NCBI RefSeq assembly: GCF_021568695.1
Contig: NZ_JAKGTI010000002.1
Location: 186,001 to 250,000, forward strand
Direction: 5' to 3'
DNA: 64,000 bases
Source: Maritalea mediterranea
GTDB taxonomy: Bacteria; Pseudomonadota; Alphaproteobacteria; Rhizobiales; Devosiaceae
Each line of letters opens with the position of its first letter. Within the stretch, counting starts at the first letter, position 1. Made by a program: the position numbers and the translations under genes. Shown here piece by piece: positions 28,911-39,569 of this stretch. The notes beneath the pieces are model-generated. The model worked only from the letters and a program-made list of their open reading frames with translations. It had not been told where the DNA came from and searched no databases.

Positions 28911-28939
28911 GTCATTACCGGGCTTGCCCCGGTAATCCA
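28911..28939 (+). repeat. Palindromic element, family GTCA-arm-CTTGA-arm-TCCA
   Basis: GTCA, arm TTACCGGG, loop CTTGC, arm CCCGGTAA, TCCA. The arms are an exact 8-bp inverted repeat. Confidence 0.85.
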
Positions 28940-28983: not shown

Positions 28984-29012
28984 GTCATTGCAAGACTTGA
29001 TCTTGCAATCCA
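28984..29012 (+). repeat. Palindromic element, family GTCA-arm-CTTGA-arm-TCCA
   Basis: GTCA, arm TTGCAAGA, loop CTTGA, arm TCTTGCAA, TCCA. Exact 8-bp arms; the same arm type recurs at 31107 and 39093. Confidence 0.85.
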
Positions 29013-31106: not shown

Positions 31107-31135
31107 GTCATTGCAAGACGTAATCTTGCAATCCA
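31107..31135 (+). repeat. Palindromic element, family GTCA-arm-CTTGA-arm-TCCA
   Basis: GTCA, TTGCAAGA, loop CGTAA, TCTTGCAA, TCCA. Arms as at 28984, with a changed loop. Confidence 0.85.
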
Positions 31136-31194: not shown

Positions 31195-31223
31195 GTCACC
31201 CTAGGGCCTGACCCGAGGGTCCA
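31195..31223 (+). repeat. Palindromic element, family GTCA-arm-CTTGA-arm-TCCA
   Basis: GTCA, CCCTAGGG, loop CCTGA, CCCGAGGG, TCCA. One arm mismatch. Confidence 0.8.
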
Positions 31224-31290: not shown

Positions 31291-31319
31291 TGGATTGTCG
31301 GGTCAAGCCCGACAATGAC
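31291..31319 (-). repeat. Palindromic element, reverse orientation
   Basis: Read on the minus strand: GTCA, TTGTCGGG, CTTGA, CCCGACAA, TCCA. Exact 8-bp arms of a type not seen elsewhere in the window. Confidence 0.85.
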
Positions 31320-35532: not shown

Positions 35533-36738
35533 ATGAGCATCTTTGTCAAGCATCGCGCCTTCCTGCGCTCGCCCTATTTTATGCTGATCCTCATGGCCAT
35601 CGCCATGCAGCTCAGCTTTGCCTCCTGGCAAAATTTCCTCAACAATTTCGCCCACGACAGGGCCGCCTTCACCGGCGCCGATATGGGCCTGTTGCAATCC
35701 ATTCGGGAAATTCCGGGCTTCCTCGCCTTCACCGCGGTGTTTGTGTTGCTCCTTTTGCGCGAACAAACCTTTGCCCTGATCTCGCTGGCCCTTCTGGGCC
35801 TGGGCGTTGCCGTCACCGGCTATTTCCCCAGCCTCACGGGCCTGTTGATCACCACCTTCATCATGTCCGTCGGCTTTCATTATTATGAGACCATGAACCA
35901 GTCTTTGCAGCTGCAATGGCTGCCCAAAGAAACCGCCCCGCGCCAATTGGGCGTTATTCTCGCGGTCGGTTCGTTCGGGCAATTGATGGTGTTTGGCCTG
36001 ATCATCTGGCTCTATCAATGGGCCGAACTGCCATATACGACCCTGTTCGCCATTTTTGGCGGCCTCACGCTGGCGCTGGTGGCCTTTATGGTGTTCTGGT
36101 TCCCGCAATTTAAGGAAGAAGTGCCGCAGATCAACAAGATCGTGCTGCGCAAACGCTATTGGCTTTATTACGCGCTCACCTTCATGTCCGGCGCCCGCCG
36201 CCAAATCTTTGTGGTGTTTGCCGCCTGGATGATGGTGGAAAAATTCGGCTTTGAGGTACACGAGGTCTCCATCCTCTTCCTCATCAATGTGGCGTTCAAC
36301 ATGTATTTCGCCCCCAAAATCGGCGCGGCCATCATCCGCTTTGGCGAACGCACCGCCCTCACCATTGAATATATCGGCCTGATTTTGGTGTTCACCGCCT
36401 ATGCGTTCGTGAATGACCCGATCCTTGGCGCCAGCCTTTATGTGATCGACCATTTCTTCTTCGCACTGGCCATTGCGCTGAAAACCTATTTCCAAAAAAT
36501 CGCCGACCCCCGCGACATGGCCCCCACCGCCTCCGTCGCCTTCACCATCAACCACATCGCCGCCGTGGTCATCCCGGTCGTCTTCGGCCTCATCTGGATC
36601 ACCAACCCAGCAGCGGTGTTCCTCGCTGGCGCAGGCTTTGCGTTTATCTCGCTTTTGCTGGCCCGGCTCATCCCGCGTCATCCGATGGAAGGGCATGAGA
36701 CGGTTTTGGGAAAGAAGGCAGTTGTTGTGGGGGAGTAG
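35533..36738 (+). CDS. MFS transporter
   Basis: A 401-residue protein with about 12 hydrophobic segments, the major facilitator layout. No substrate-specific motif was recognised. The start at 35533 (MSIFVKHR) is preferred over an upstream TTG at 35482 that would add a non-hydrophobic leader. It begins 64 bp after the YcjF-like gene and may be read with it. A 66-bp stretch of this gene (36535-36600) has a 94% identical copy at 37187-37252, outside any gene. Confidence 0.88.
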   Translation: MSIFVKHRAFLRSPYFMLILMAIAMQLSFASWQNFLNNFAHDRAAFTGADMGLLQSIREIPGFLAFTAVFVLLLLREQTFALISLALLGLGVAVTGYFPSLTGLLITTFIMSVGFHYYETMNQSLQLQWLPKETAPRQLGVILAVGSFGQLMVFGLIIWLYQWAELPYTTLFAIFGGLTLALVAFMVFWFPQFKEEVPQINKIVLRKRYWLYYALTFMSGARRQIFVVFAAWMMVEKFGFEVHEVSILFLINVAFNMYFAPKIGAAIIRFGERTALTIEYIGLILVFTAYAFVNDPILGASLYVIDHFFFALAIALKTYFQKIADPRDMAPTASVAFTINHIAAVVIPVVFGLIWITNPAAVFLAGAGFAFISLLLARLIPRHPMEGHETVLGKKAVVVGE

Positions 36739-36840
36739 AGACGAGCTGAGTCTTCATAGCCCCTGTCTTCGATTTGGAGACTAAAACTCAAATTACAATT
36801 TCTAGCGGAGATTTAATTACTTCATTTGCTAGATTTCGGT

Positions 36841-37098
36841 TCAGAGAAAAAACACAATACAAAAACCAATGCCAACACAAAAGAACGCGAGATAGTCAGC
36901 CTTAGCTCTCTTTTTTGAGTACTCTTCCTCCTTACCCAACTCCTCATCAGCCCTACTTTGATCGAAGAATATCTTTGTAAAGGGATATCTGTACTTATAC
37001 ATATTTGTCCAATATCTATCGAAAAAGATAAGATATACAAACGGGACGAACACCAAAAAGGCCCCGATTATCAAGACAATATCTCTGATACCAAGCAA
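36841..37098 (-). CDS. AT-rich small membrane protein
   Basis: An 85-residue protein with a hydrophobic N-terminal segment (about residues 6-25), a Lys/Glu-rich middle and a hydrophobic C-terminus (about 67-85). Only a TTG start is available, preceded by AGGTGA. Codon use is AT-rich like the orphan at 32308. No family recognised; it may be a remnant. Confidence 0.45.
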   Translation of the reverse strand: MLGIRDIVLIIGAFLVFVPFVYLIFFDRYWTNMYKYRYPFTKIFFDQSRADEELGKEEEYSKKRAKADYLAFFCVGIGFCIVFFL

Positions 37099-37186
37099 GA
37101 AATCACCTAATTATACCGCCAAAATATAGGATTAGATATTAGCAACCATAAGTTTCAGACACAACCAAAACTACCAGTTCCGGCAA

Positions 37187-37252
37187 GTCGCCTCCACCAT
37201 CAACCACATCGCCGCCGTGGTCATCCCTGTCGTGTTCGGCCTCATCTGGATT
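37187..37252 (+). pseudogene. 66-bp fragment of an MFS transporter gene
   Basis: Aligns with 36535-36600 of the neighbouring MFS gene with 4 differences. In the reading frame of the gene two of the differences are synonymous third-position changes (CCG/CCT, GTC/GTG). It stops exactly where the palindrome at 37247 begins (shared TGGAT). It is a non-functional remnant, either of a tandem paralogue or of a captured fragment. Confidence 0.75.
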
Positions 37253-37272
37253 CCCGCCTTCGCGGGAATGAC
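37247..37272 (-). repeat. Palindromic element, short-arm variant
   Basis: TGGAT-TCCCGC-CTTC-GCGGGA-ATGAC, i.e. GTCAT...ATCCA on the minus strand with a 6-bp core stem. It abuts the MFS fragment. Confidence 0.8.
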
Positions 37273-37394
37273 GGTGGTGGGTGGCGTGGGGGCTGAGGAA
37301 AGCAATTGGTGCGCATGGCCGTTGCGACGATAGTGCCTTACAGGCAGTGTTAGTGGTTGCGGGGTTAGTGGTTGCGGGCCCCCTTACCCTCCCC

Positions 37395-37423
37395 GTCATC
37401 CTCGGGCTTGACCCGGGGATCCA
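37395..37423 (+). repeat. Palindromic element on left side of GIY-YIG gene
   Basis: GTCA, TCCTCGGG, CTTGA, CCCGGGGA, TCCA (one G-T pair). It ends 19 bp before the GIY-YIG start codon. Confidence 0.85.
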
Positions 37424-37442
37424 GTTAAGCGCAAATCAAGGC

Positions 37443-37730
37443 ATGAGCGCGTTTGTGTACATCATGGCCAGCCAGAGAAACGGCACATTATATGTGGGCG
37501 TGACCAATGATCTGGTGCGGCGCGTGTGGGAGCATCGCCAAGGTCAAGTGGATGGCTTCACAAAGCAGCATGGTGTGAAAATGCTCGTCCACTACGAGCA
37601 ACACGACAATTTCGAAAGCGCCATCACCCGTGAGAAGGCGCTGAAGAAGTGGAACCGCAAGTGGAAGTTGAACCTCATTGAAAAAGGCAATCCGAATTGG
37701 AATGACCTTTATGATGAGGTGTGCCGATAG
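37443..37730 (+). CDS. GIY-YIG nuclease (YhbQ/UPF0213-like)
   Basis: A 95-residue single-domain protein. FVYIMASQRNGTLYVGVTND (residues 4-23) is the GIY-YIG core, here YIM...YVG. Conserved Arg in LVRRVWEHR and Glu in ITREKALKKW (about residue 66) correspond to the catalytic Arg and metal-binding Glu of the fold. It starts at ATG 37443; upstream in-frame codons run through the palindrome and are not needed. The gene sits between two palindromes in opposite orientation (ending 19 bp before, starting 7 bp after). It has the size of YhbQ-type nucleases, whose biological role is poorly known. A link to the palindromes is inference. Confidence 0.88.
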   Translation: MSAFVYIMASQRNGTLYVGVTNDLVRRVWEHRQGQVDGFTKQHGVKMLVHYEQHDNFESAITREKALKKWNRKWKLNLIEKGNPNWNDLYDEVCR

Positions 37731-37737
37731 TCCCATC

Positions 37738-37785
37738 TGGATTCCCGACATATTATGCTCACGCCGGATGGCTTGGCGGGAATGA
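37738..37785 (-). repeat. Palindromic element on right side of GIY-YIG gene, long loop
   Basis: TGGATTCCCG ... CGGGAATGAC: same ends as the element at 37247 but with about 28 bases in the loop. It begins 7 bp after the GIY-YIG stop and is in inverse orientation to the left element. Confidence 0.65.
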
Positions 37786-37822
37786 CGGCGGTGGATGCGG
37801 GCAGCCCGTTCCCCTCCCCGAC

Positions 37823-37851
37823 GTCACCCTCGGGCTTGACCCGAGGGTCCA
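37823..37851 (+). repeat. Palindromic element, family GTCA-arm-CTTGA-arm-TCCA
   Basis: GTCA, CCCTCGGG, CTTGA, CCCGAGGG, TCCA. Exact arms. Confidence 0.9.
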
Positions 37852-37984
37852 TGATGAGCTGGCCACGCAGGAAATGGGCGTATTCCCCCAAACTGTTGAA
37901 TACTGCTTGTGTAGAGATGCGGACCGGAAAGCGAAGCGGACGTTAGCGCATCTCGCGCACCTTGCGGCAAGTGGAACGGCGTCA

Positions 37985-38013
37985 TGGATACTCGGGTCAA
38001 GCCCGAGTATGAC
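37985..38013 (-). repeat. Palindromic element, reverse orientation
   Basis: Minus strand: GTCA, TACTCGGG, CTTGA, CCCGAGTA, TCCA. Exact arms. Confidence 0.9.
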
Positions 38014-38397
38014 GACTGATGTGTGGTCGCAAAATGTACAATAAAACAACTTTAGGTTGACAATTGAAATCACACACAAACTTTCATTTCCGCAACCAAT
38101 TGCAATCAACCCACTGAAAAACCGAAATAACTTCACCCACCAAAACCACCCCACCCACCACAATCCGTCACCCCGCCTCACAAACTTATCCCCGCCCCCA
38201 AAACCCGTGGTAAAATGCTGCCATCTTCTGCCCCACGCGGTTGTCGACGGACAACGGGGTATATCTGTTTCCCTGTCGCGCAGTCGGCAGGATGCCGCGC
38301 ATCGGCGCAAGCAATGCGATCGCATTCACCCCTGTGCCGGGCCAGCCTGTCCGGCGAGAGGACAGCAAATGCGACCGTAGCGCCCGCTATCGGCCCT
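38014..38397. other. Gene-free stretch
   Basis: No credible gene; open frames here are short, mutually overlapping on both strands and without ribosome sites. Together with the flanking repeats the whole interval from 37786 to 39569 lacks genes. Confidence 0.6.
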
Positions 38398-38910
38398 CTA
38401 ATTGGCGGGGGTGTCGGGGTAGTGAGCGCAGCGAACGACGGCGTCGCGTAAAAATGCCGGGGGTGCCCAGCAGCCACGCGGCGTGAGCGCGTAAACTGCG
38501 AGCGAAGCGACCGCTATCGGCCCCTCAATATGGCGGGGGTGCCGGGGACGGGAGCCAGCCTGCGCGGCGTGAGCGCTGCAAAAGAGCGACCGGTGGCGGC
38601 AAGAAACAGACGAATGAAGAAGCGGTTGGTGGGCCGGACGCGGCGCACCGCGTCTTTGATTTGATTGCGCCCGACACCGAGGGCGGGCCACCCGGTGCAA
38701 CGCACCGGGGCGGTCGGGACTATTGGGTAAGCACCCCACATAATCAGACCAAGGTGCGAAAAACGCCGCTGGCGCGAGACGTGAACGGTCTCAATTCTCT
38801 GCGCAACCACGAGCCCCGAAACGTCTCGTGCCCCGCAAACCTTGTCCCCTGAATGCGTGCCGCATGTCAGGCGCTTTGGTGTGTCTGCGCGAATGTGAAC
38901 GGAAGCGGAA

Positions 38911-38936
38911 TTGATCCCGGCTCAAGGCCGGGATGG
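38911..38936. repeat. Palindrome, variant type (GATCCCGG...)
   Basis: TTGATCCCGGC-TCAA-GGCCGGGATGG, nearly identical to 31003-31024 and its flanks. Confidence 0.75.
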
Positions 38937-39092
38937 TCGAGGGGGATGTGATGGAGCACTTGATCCACCGCCCAGAAAACGCCGGTGAGGCGCACCAATC
39001 GGCGGGGATGTCGGGGTAGTGAGCGTAGCGAACGACGGCGACACGTAACAATGCCAAGCATGTTTTGGCAAAGCACCAACCACCCTCACCGC

Positions 39093-39121
39093 GTCATTGC
39101 AAGACTTGATCTTGCAATCCA
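39093..39121 (+). repeat. Palindromic element, family GTCA-arm-CTTGA-arm-TCCA
   Basis: GTCA, TTGCAAGA, CTTGA, TCTTGCAA, TCCA; identical to 28984-29012. Confidence 0.9.
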
Positions 39122-39190
39122 TTTGAGTAGTCGGCTTGTAGGAGCGCAGGTGAATAAACCGCCGCCACCTCAGCAAGCGGACAAGTGAAA

Positions 39191-39219
39191 TGGACCCCAA
39201 GATCAAGTCTTGGGGTGAC
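39191..39219 (-). repeat. Palindromic element, reverse orientation
   Basis: Minus strand: GTCA, CCCCAAGA, CTTGA, TCTTGGGG, TCCA. Exact arms. Confidence 0.9.
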
Positions 39220-39569
39220 GGCGGTGTGTGTGGCTGGTGTCGCGGAAAGCATTGGCGCGTGGCACCAATCGGCGGGGGTGCCGGGGACGGGAGCGCAGCG
39301 ACCGGTGGCGGCAAGAAAAATGGCGGGGTTTCGGGGTAGTGAGCGGTGGCGGCGCGTAGTAATGCCGGGGGTGCCGGGCCAGCCTGCGCGGCGCGGGCGC
39401 TAAAAAAGAGACACCGGTGGCGGCGCATAAAAAATGCCCCACAAGCGCAAACGCCGGGGGGGCACCTAAACAAGGCTTGGGCGGCCAGCCCGGCGCACTT
39501 TTGCGCCGCGCCGTCGCAGGTTAGCTGGCCGGTGCGAGGCACCGACCAGCGCTCAACCGTGAGACAAAC

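Follow-up and report, generated by a model that had tools for sequence, protein, structure and literature searches.

The window, by which we refer to the whole 64-kb stretch of Maritalea mediterranea DNA that was analysed, contains an intergenic gene for a small GIY-YIG nuclease, which lies between two hairpin repeats (REPs) of opposite orientation. Further REPs were located with a strict detector (GTC, a stem of 7–11 bp with at most one mismatch, a loop of 3–6 nt, and CCA), and the sequence was compared with those of relatives, among them M. myrionectae (G001), G002, G003 and G005. The features are as follows, with the evidence for each in brackets.

28911..28939, plus strand: dispersed REP without a gene, aligning with REPs in G001 and G005 (strict detector)
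28984..29012, plus strand: dispersed REP without a gene, aligning with REPs in G001 and G005 (strict detector)
31107..31135, plus strand: dispersed REP without a gene (strict detector)
31195..31223, plus strand: dispersed REP without a gene (strict detector)
31291..31319, minus strand: dispersed REP without a gene (strict detector)
37187..37251, plus strand: 65-bp copy (95%) of an inner part of the upstream MFS gene (36535–36599), joined to a REP tail (TGGAT) (comparison with relatives)
37247..37272, minus strand: REP with an 8-bp stem and a 4-nt loop (strict detector; comparison with relatives)
37395..37423, plus strand: upstream end of the putative unit, a CGTC-tagged REP, GTCATCCTCGGGCTTGACCCGGGGATCCA, with a 9-bp stem, a CTTGA loop and the tag outward (read directly; strict detector; folding)
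37443..37730, plus strand: gene for a 95-aa single-domain GIY-YIG nuclease with a Slx1/UPF0213-like fold (Pfam PF01541, alignment, structure model, PDB matches, dN/dS)
37738..37786, minus strand: downstream end of the putative unit, a CGTC-tagged REP, TGGATTCCCG...GGCGGGAATGAC, with an enlarged loop (49 nt) and the tag outward (read directly)
37823..37851, plus strand: REP with a 9-bp stem and a 5-nt loop (strict detector, folding)
37985..38013, minus strand: REP with a 9-bp stem and a 5-nt loop, in unit-like orientation with 37823 (strict detector, folding)
39093..39121, plus strand: dispersed REP, paired with 39191..39219 (strict detector)
39191..39219, minus strand: dispersed REP, paired with 39093..39121 (strict detector)

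The gene runs from the ATG at 37443 to the TAG stop at 37728–37730, as read from the sequence. The upstream REP, whose tag base C is at 37394, stops 19 bp short of the ATG, and the downstream one begins 7 bp past the stop, its loop being enlarged, in contrast to the plain 26-nt element found at this place in the relative G003. The original prediction, which had placed a 95-codon GIY-YIG gene between two inverted palindromes at these distances and three additional elements at 37247, 37823 and 37985, was correct in all these respects. Altogether, 11 strict REPs are present in the window, and four of these, plus the enlarged one, fall within a 767-bp stretch at the nuclease gene. Since only 4 strict motifs turn up when 815 kb from the homologue loci are reversed as a chance control, this clustering is not accounted for by chance. 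Folding as single-stranded DNA gives z values of −4.6 to −5.7 for three of the four intact locus hairpins, with none of 200 shuffles being as good, and a z value of −2.39 for the hairpin at 37395, with 3 of 200 shuffles as good. No Rfam family scores above the gathering threshold in 36800–39300. Downstream of the unit, imperfect repeats of about 50–67 bp are noted at 38404–38467, 38989–39055 and 39271–39318, and these are repeated in the relatives too.

In sequence and layout the locus hairpins correspond to the CGTC-tagged REPs described by Di Nocera, De Gregorio and Rocco (2013, PMC3733652). According to the accessible text of that report, these have a CGTC or TGTC tag, an 8–9-bp stem, a 4–5-nt loop and a CCA tail, are mostly alphaproteobacterial and mostly intergenic, are frequently found as inverted pairs, and form families of tens to thousands of copies; tag, stem, loop, tail and inverted pairing are the same in the elements of the locus, apart from the enlarged loop of 37738–37786. 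The same text describes them as having no associated transposase genes and seemingly no dedicated transposase, whereas a dedicated GIY-YIG partner is proposed here. Among 186 REPs situated within 400 bp of the genes, the base preceding GTC (itself set by the detector) is T in 55% and C in 41%, and the lengths, for which CCA and the stem and loop ranges were also set by the detector, are 26 nt (106), 29 nt (43), 27 nt (28), 28 nt (8) and 31 nt (1). Two REP models, R1 and R2, were built by length class, one MAFFT alignment of all lengths having misplaced the stems, and the M. mediterranea genome (G000) has at least 48 matches to R1 and 17 to R2. Neighbouring REP pairs that enclose no gene (n = 166) have their tags outward in 85 cases, inward in 51 and in tandem in 30.

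The sole Pfam domain of the 95-aa protein is PF01541 (GIY-YIG, E 1.7e-16), and no NUMOD or other target-binding domain is found in it by Pfam. Its structure model has a pLDDT of 94.5, and in the PDB it is nearest to UPF0213 proteins and Slx1-Slx4, the best matches being 1zg2, 1ywl and Slx1-Slx4. Alignment of 81 homologues shows that Y6, H31 and E64 are invariant and that Y17, G19 and R27 are kept in at least 90%, and also reveals a C-terminal pattern, WxRxWKxxLIExxNPxWxDL, which is peculiar to this nuclease subfamily. Tyr, Arg and Glu are the catalytic residues in GIY-YIG enzymes; the GIY-YIG fold with conserved Tyr, Arg and Glu, as in the Slx1-like branch, is found in this nuclease, which shares fold and catalytic residues with Slx1-like and UPF0213 proteins. 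Slx1 cuts branched DNA, as the title of one matched PDB entry also says, and this would suit a hairpin or a cruciform as substrate. The dN/dS of the nuclease is 0.07 against each of two near relatives and lies at 0.045–0.148 in 12 of 14 computed homologue pairs (18 were chosen, and 4 that were not computable were left out), the other values, 0.28 and 0.54, coming from two near-identical pairs with few changes behind both. Judging by these ratios and by the alignment, the nuclease is under long-term purifying selection, with its active site intact. In profile searches it matches GIY-YIG homing endonucleases weakly (phrog_5123, E 0.0025; TIGR01453, E 5e-4, below the cut-off of that model), and no NCBIfam model scores above its cut-off. 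No intron or reverse transcriptase was found with the gene, no homologue was matched among 50,697 phage records at E 1e-8, and no defence-system model matches at E 0.01.

We have scanned 84,980 species genomes for homologues and used the best 80 of at least 521 confirmed relatives. A strict REP is present within 300 bp of the matched stretch in 69 of these 80 loci; the homologues are therefore flanked by palindromes and not by ordinary sequence, and the flank enrichment anticipated by the original prediction is indeed observed. Over the 80 loci, the REP density within 300 bp amounts to 181 in 47.1 kb, or 3.85 per kb, against 56 in 639.7 kb, or 0.088 per kb, at more than 1 kb away, which corresponds to a 44 times difference; the reversed-sequence control gives 0.005 per kb. 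Within 150 bp, REPs are found on both sides of 50 of the 80 homologues versus 1 of 365 other ORFs taken from these loci, and on at least one side of 67 of 80 versus 23 of 365. The arrangement is also a preferred one: judged by the nearest REPs, the commonest layout (32/80) is that of the window, GTC..CCA-gene-TGG..GAC, and 26 of 42 inverted downstream REPs begin 0–9 bp past the stop. The 72 gene copies placed in a tree include 65 with a named phylum, and these represent 16 phyla, the phylum being taken from the names of records that are mostly MAGs, with bin errors possible. Strict REPs are lacking within 3 kb at 5 of the 10 loci fetched from a plasmid collection (L219–L222 and L227). One of these, on a Planktothrix plasmid (L227), has the homologue between an MmeI-type restriction enzyme and the DISARM gene drmA.

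The specificity of the link was analysed on 164 units with full flanks, comprising the 80-locus set and an order-level sample from which part of the listed places was added; 5 of 169 units with short flanks were left out. Strict REPs are found on any side in 110 of these units and on both sides in 77, and hairpins searched for irrespective of the tag (stem of at least 8) in 114 and 78, respectively. The order-level sample alone is weaker, with strict REPs on any side in 46 of 86 units. Where strict REPs are lacking, many flanks have hairpins that are arranged in the same way and carry variant tags or enlarged loops; in some flanks nothing is evident. Other small GIY-YIG hits, taken from related genomes, are for the most part not flanked by REPs, unlike the nuclease subfamily: strict REPs occur in 1 of 20 (L197, which is itself a family member) and tag-free hairpins on any side in 4 and on both in 3, with L187 and L195 also looking close to the family. 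Similarly, among 20 uvrC genes a strict REP is found on one side of one, and tag-free hairpins on any side of 3 and on both sides of none. A further test independent of the tag, the longest inverted match between the 120-bp flanks, reaches at least 14 nt in 67 of 164 units versus 2 of 548 control ORFs. As far as these genomic comparisons go, the link between gene and repeat is general and specific to the nuclease subfamily. As a separate observation, untagged hairpins lie on both sides of two small GIY-YIG genes that are not part of the core sample, L187, near the family, and L194, of another type.

The limits of the unit were inspected in close pairs (at least 80% identity over at least 200 bp, with 400-bp flanks compared). 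Of the 27 pairs listed, 12 lose their likeness within 150 bp of the gene on both sides, and the rest are syntenic, tandem or alike over longer stretches. When six pairs at unrelated sites are followed base by base, the likeness roughly spans the distance between the outer REP ends. It goes from GTC to GAC in L090/L097, situated 30 kb apart on one contig, whose much enlarged hairpins keep their GTC and CCA ends; from CGTC to about 14 bp beyond GAC in L151/L152 and from about CTCGTC to GACGA in L114/L115, each within one genome; and from GTC to about 20 bp beyond GAC in L079/L110, from MAGs of different named groups. In L041/L063, from one MAG, it starts at GTC and its other end lies at GAC, where the L063 contig stops, and in the two copies of L034 it starts at GTC, the downstream end being less clear. 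Among 51 plain units, flanks outside the REPs are alike at background level only and the REP-gene spacers are no more alike than these flanks, both in REP-end-aligned positions (where GTC/CCA identity is given by construction, and 4 of 200 syntenic-like pairs were left out) and in a gapped-alignment version (9 of 161 left out). The unit limits thus rest on the few close pairs and do not follow in general.

A case of presence and absence, as had been sought in the original prediction, is provided by Azospirillum. On plasmid AZO_p3 of Azospirillum lipoferum 4B, a block REP-REP-gene-REP-REP is placed within the suf operon, between sufB and sufC (L225:2877–3383), while in A. ramasamyi, A. oryzae, Azospirillum sp. 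B510 and A. thermophilum sufB adjoins sufC and there is no unit. No strict REP is found in the 1.7–1.8 kb around the site in these four relatives, which indicates that the REPs came or went together with the block. The intergenic flanks are short and diverged too far to place the exact junction or a target-site duplication. Taken from the genomes compared, the copies of the unit are dispersed, with this one case of presence and absence.

A distinct scenario resulted from the Maritalea site itself. The unit is present at the same place in M. myrionectae and in G005, with 93–94% protein identity, and in a diverged form (70%) in G003, meaning that it is old at this site; the recent insertion that a comparison of strains might have revealed was not encountered. 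In G002 the gene is missing from this place, which is occupied by two inverted REPs with 143 bp between them, and homologues are found elsewhere in that genome. Most REPs of G000, G001 and G005 stand at places that these genomes share. In M. myrionectae, the last 15 codons of a second GIY-YIG gene (L033:5765–5809) directly precede the REP matching 37247, a remnant indicating that an older tandem unit decayed there; REP 37247..37272 is thus probably the downstream end of such a unit. On the tail side of this REP the sequence differs in each of the three genomes and is always joined at the TGGAT end; in the window it is the copied MFS-gene part at 37187–37251, which is not aligned at this place in G001 and G005. 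At this one locus, the differing sequences are compatible with breaks at REP ends.

At the level of whole genomes, a homologue of the nuclease is found in 100 of 151, the M. mediterranea genome included (90 clear, 10 weak), with a patchy distribution and 1–5 gene copies per genome. Counting the REP matches listed, up to near 50 per model and genome, the median is 50.5 in genomes with a clear homologue (n = 90), 20.5 in those with a weak one (n = 10) and 9 in those without (n = 51), and at least 20 REPs are found in 78 of 90 genomes with a clear homologue versus 17 of 51 without. When genomes are permuted within kinship strata (six genera and two pooled groups, the 10 weak-homology genomes being left out), none of 5000 permutations reaches the observed difference. 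REP number therefore follows the gene also among kin, in line with the original prediction, which would not go along with unrelated numbers. A profile search in 40 of the 51 gene-less genomes, all 17 REP-rich ones included, returned fragments only, in 2 of the 17, and there are no strict REPs beside these fragments. We infer that in the 17 REP-rich genomes the gene was lost after spread, and a homing explanation (see below) fits them equally well. The gene is present in G099, G128 and G145 with no R1 or R2 match, and in G145 strict REPs adjoin it.

Not only the number but also the type of REP goes along with the nuclease. In 28 of 29 informative genomes (3 ties of 32 left out, the units' own few REPs being counted) the REPs beside the gene belong to the class that predominates in the genome, and this becomes 25 of 26 without three genomes in which both counts are near 50. 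On the protein tree the REP loop class changes 20 times versus a mean of 35 and a minimum of 26 in 300 shuffles, which partly follows from joint inheritance. The tag is the most telling feature here: ten genomes were searched with a pattern that allowed only GTC, CTC, GCC and CCC, and 4 had no match. In G106 the 28 matched REPs have CTC in 27, CCC in 1 and GTC in none; its units L131 and L132 also carry CTC, and no more than 5 of the 28 are within 400 bp of these units. In five other genomes all 21 matches to this stem pattern have GTC.

Considering its architecture, the putative unit is one that works like a RAYT/REPtron without being one. As in RAYT, REPtron and REPIN systems, one small nuclease gene lies between tagged REPs in inverted order, there are gene-less REPs and pairs in trans, and the tag matches that of the genome repeats. 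However, the RAYT enzyme is a Y1 HUH transposase and its REPs are tagged GTAG, whereas here we find a GIY-YIG protein (PF01541 only) and GTC with a CCA tail; no Y1 transposase (PF01797, RAYT fold) was found in the M. mediterranea genome (98.75% completeness), and the original prediction saw no RAYT either. The best reading is an autonomous mobile unit with a Slx1-like nuclease, comparable to RAYT/REP but built on an unrelated enzyme. We consider it probable that 37395–37786 represents a widespread class of small mobile units, made up of a REP, a GIY-YIG gene and an inverted REP, whose nuclease would recognise and cut the tagged hairpins, host repair helping in their placement. The association, its subfamily specificity, the dispersed copies, the presence/absence case, the match in class and, in one genome, in tag and the purifying selection, on which this proposal draws, are all read from sequence. 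Weighing against it are the REP-rich genomes without a detected homologue (17/51), the three gene-bearing genomes without R1 or R2 matches, the weaker order-level sample, the plasmid-collection loci without strict REPs, the unit limits seen in a few pairs, the shared REP places of G000, G001 and G005, and the lack of a definable target-site duplication.

In the proposed mechanism, the REPs with outward tags would be the ends of the mobile unit, and the nuclease would recognise the tagged hairpin YGTC-stem-loop-stem-CCAK, whether this forms in single-stranded DNA or as part of a cruciform, and cut beside its tag. Once liberated or copied, the unit, or else a gene-less REP pair, would be placed elsewhere with the aid of host repair, which presupposes a copying step. 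GIY-YIG enzymes hydrolyse DNA and none is known to rejoin ends, so that pasting would need other enzymes. Solitary REPs and REP pairs may be gene-less descendants of the unit and its substrates in trans. The original prediction that the nuclease recognises, cuts or spreads the palindromes is supported by the 69/80 flanked homologues, the REP numbers, the dispersed copies and the Azospirillum case; binding and cutting are what we infer only.

The alternative that survives best, and which we nevertheless judge unlikely, is that of a homing-like parasite, in which the REPs would be spread by something else and a GIY-YIG homing endonuclease would cut them and be copied by repair into a cut REP or REP pair, the hairpins acting as homology arms. 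Indeed, GIY-YIG enzymes are classical homing endonucleases in the accessible part of the 2006 survey (PMC1564403), weak profile matches point the same way, and the agreement between the REP class of unit and genome is as expected when resident REPs are invaded. The syntenic REP pair without a gene in G002, the poorly conserved REP-gene spacers and the existence of REP-rich genomes without the gene (17/51) would fit as well, but the four Azospirillum sisters have no strict REP in the 1.7–1.8 kb around the site, REP number rises with the gene, and the 95 residues hold no NUMOD or other target-binding domain. I-TevI-type GIY-YIG homing endonucleases and Penelope-like elements likewise have a GIY-YIG domain in a selfish element; here, in contrast, no NUMOD, intron or reverse transcriptase is found, and the ends are hairpin REPs.

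A host-serving role, in which the nuclease resolves REP hairpins or comes under their regulation, and in which the REPs beside it act as control elements or terminators, appears to us very improbable. It would account for the long-term purifying selection and for the unit being kept in place in G000, G001 and G005, hairpins near the stop codon could end transcription, and RAYTs are also regarded as domesticated; yet it is difficult to reconcile with the patchy occurrence (100/151 genomes, 1–5 copies each), with the dispersed copies and the presence/absence case, and with the spread over 16 named phyla. A reading of the REPs as terminators only was set aside on the controls (1/365 ORFs, 1/20 small GIY-YIG genes, 1/20 uvrC genes, and 2/548 inverted matches). 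That REPs merely gather in any long intergenic stretch where small genes sit is hardly conceivable: REPs are mostly intergenic (PMC3733652, accessible text), but this coincidence is refuted by the ORF (both sides, 1/365), small GIY-YIG and uvrC (any side, 1/20 each) controls and by the preferred inverted arrangement around the gene.

Returning to the autonomous mobile unit, we would call a REP with a dedicated nuclease a known kind of system, here built on an unrelated enzyme. In the open-access literature, including the accessible parts of PMC3733652, PMC1564403, PMC12306157, PMC6006769, PMC5082802 and PMC9465073, we have found no report of a GIY-YIG partner of REPs; preprints and subscription papers are outside this scope, and prior notice is possible there. 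The nuclease is a strong candidate, on genomic grounds, for the missing driver of a common bacterial repeat class. A dedicated nuclease would give the CGTC REPs an origin, making a testable mobile system of repeats that are abundant but unexplained, and would show that the pairing of tagged hairpin repeats with a nuclease evolved on two occasions, from unrelated enzymes. The accessible part of the 2006 GIY-YIG survey asks whether further members of the superfamily are molecular parasites (PMC1564403), a question on which a REP-flanked nuclease bears directly. If the enzyme were shown to move the repeats, the system would be a class of its own. More tentatively, and with chances that we would place just short of even, it could be a new class of autonomous elements, with a single-domain Slx1-like GIY-YIG enzyme dedicated to mobilising the whole superfamily of CGTC-tagged REPs, to which the dRS3-type repeats of Neisseria and similar palindromes of many phyla may belong; the enzyme would recognise the unpaired tag plus hairpin, tag and enzyme would co-evolve, and the chemistry would differ from that of HUH, DDE and tyrosine transposases. 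The natural difference between GTC and CTC tags offers a ready comparison of specificity in this respect. As for the dRS3 repeats of Neisseria, the likeness is by description only, and a homologue of the nuclease (58.5% identity) is found in N. gonorrhoeae (L218) with strict hairpins of the present REP type within 300 bp on both sides. The record of this locus is filed as a plasmid, with 2.17 Mb, and by its size it is probably the chromosome.
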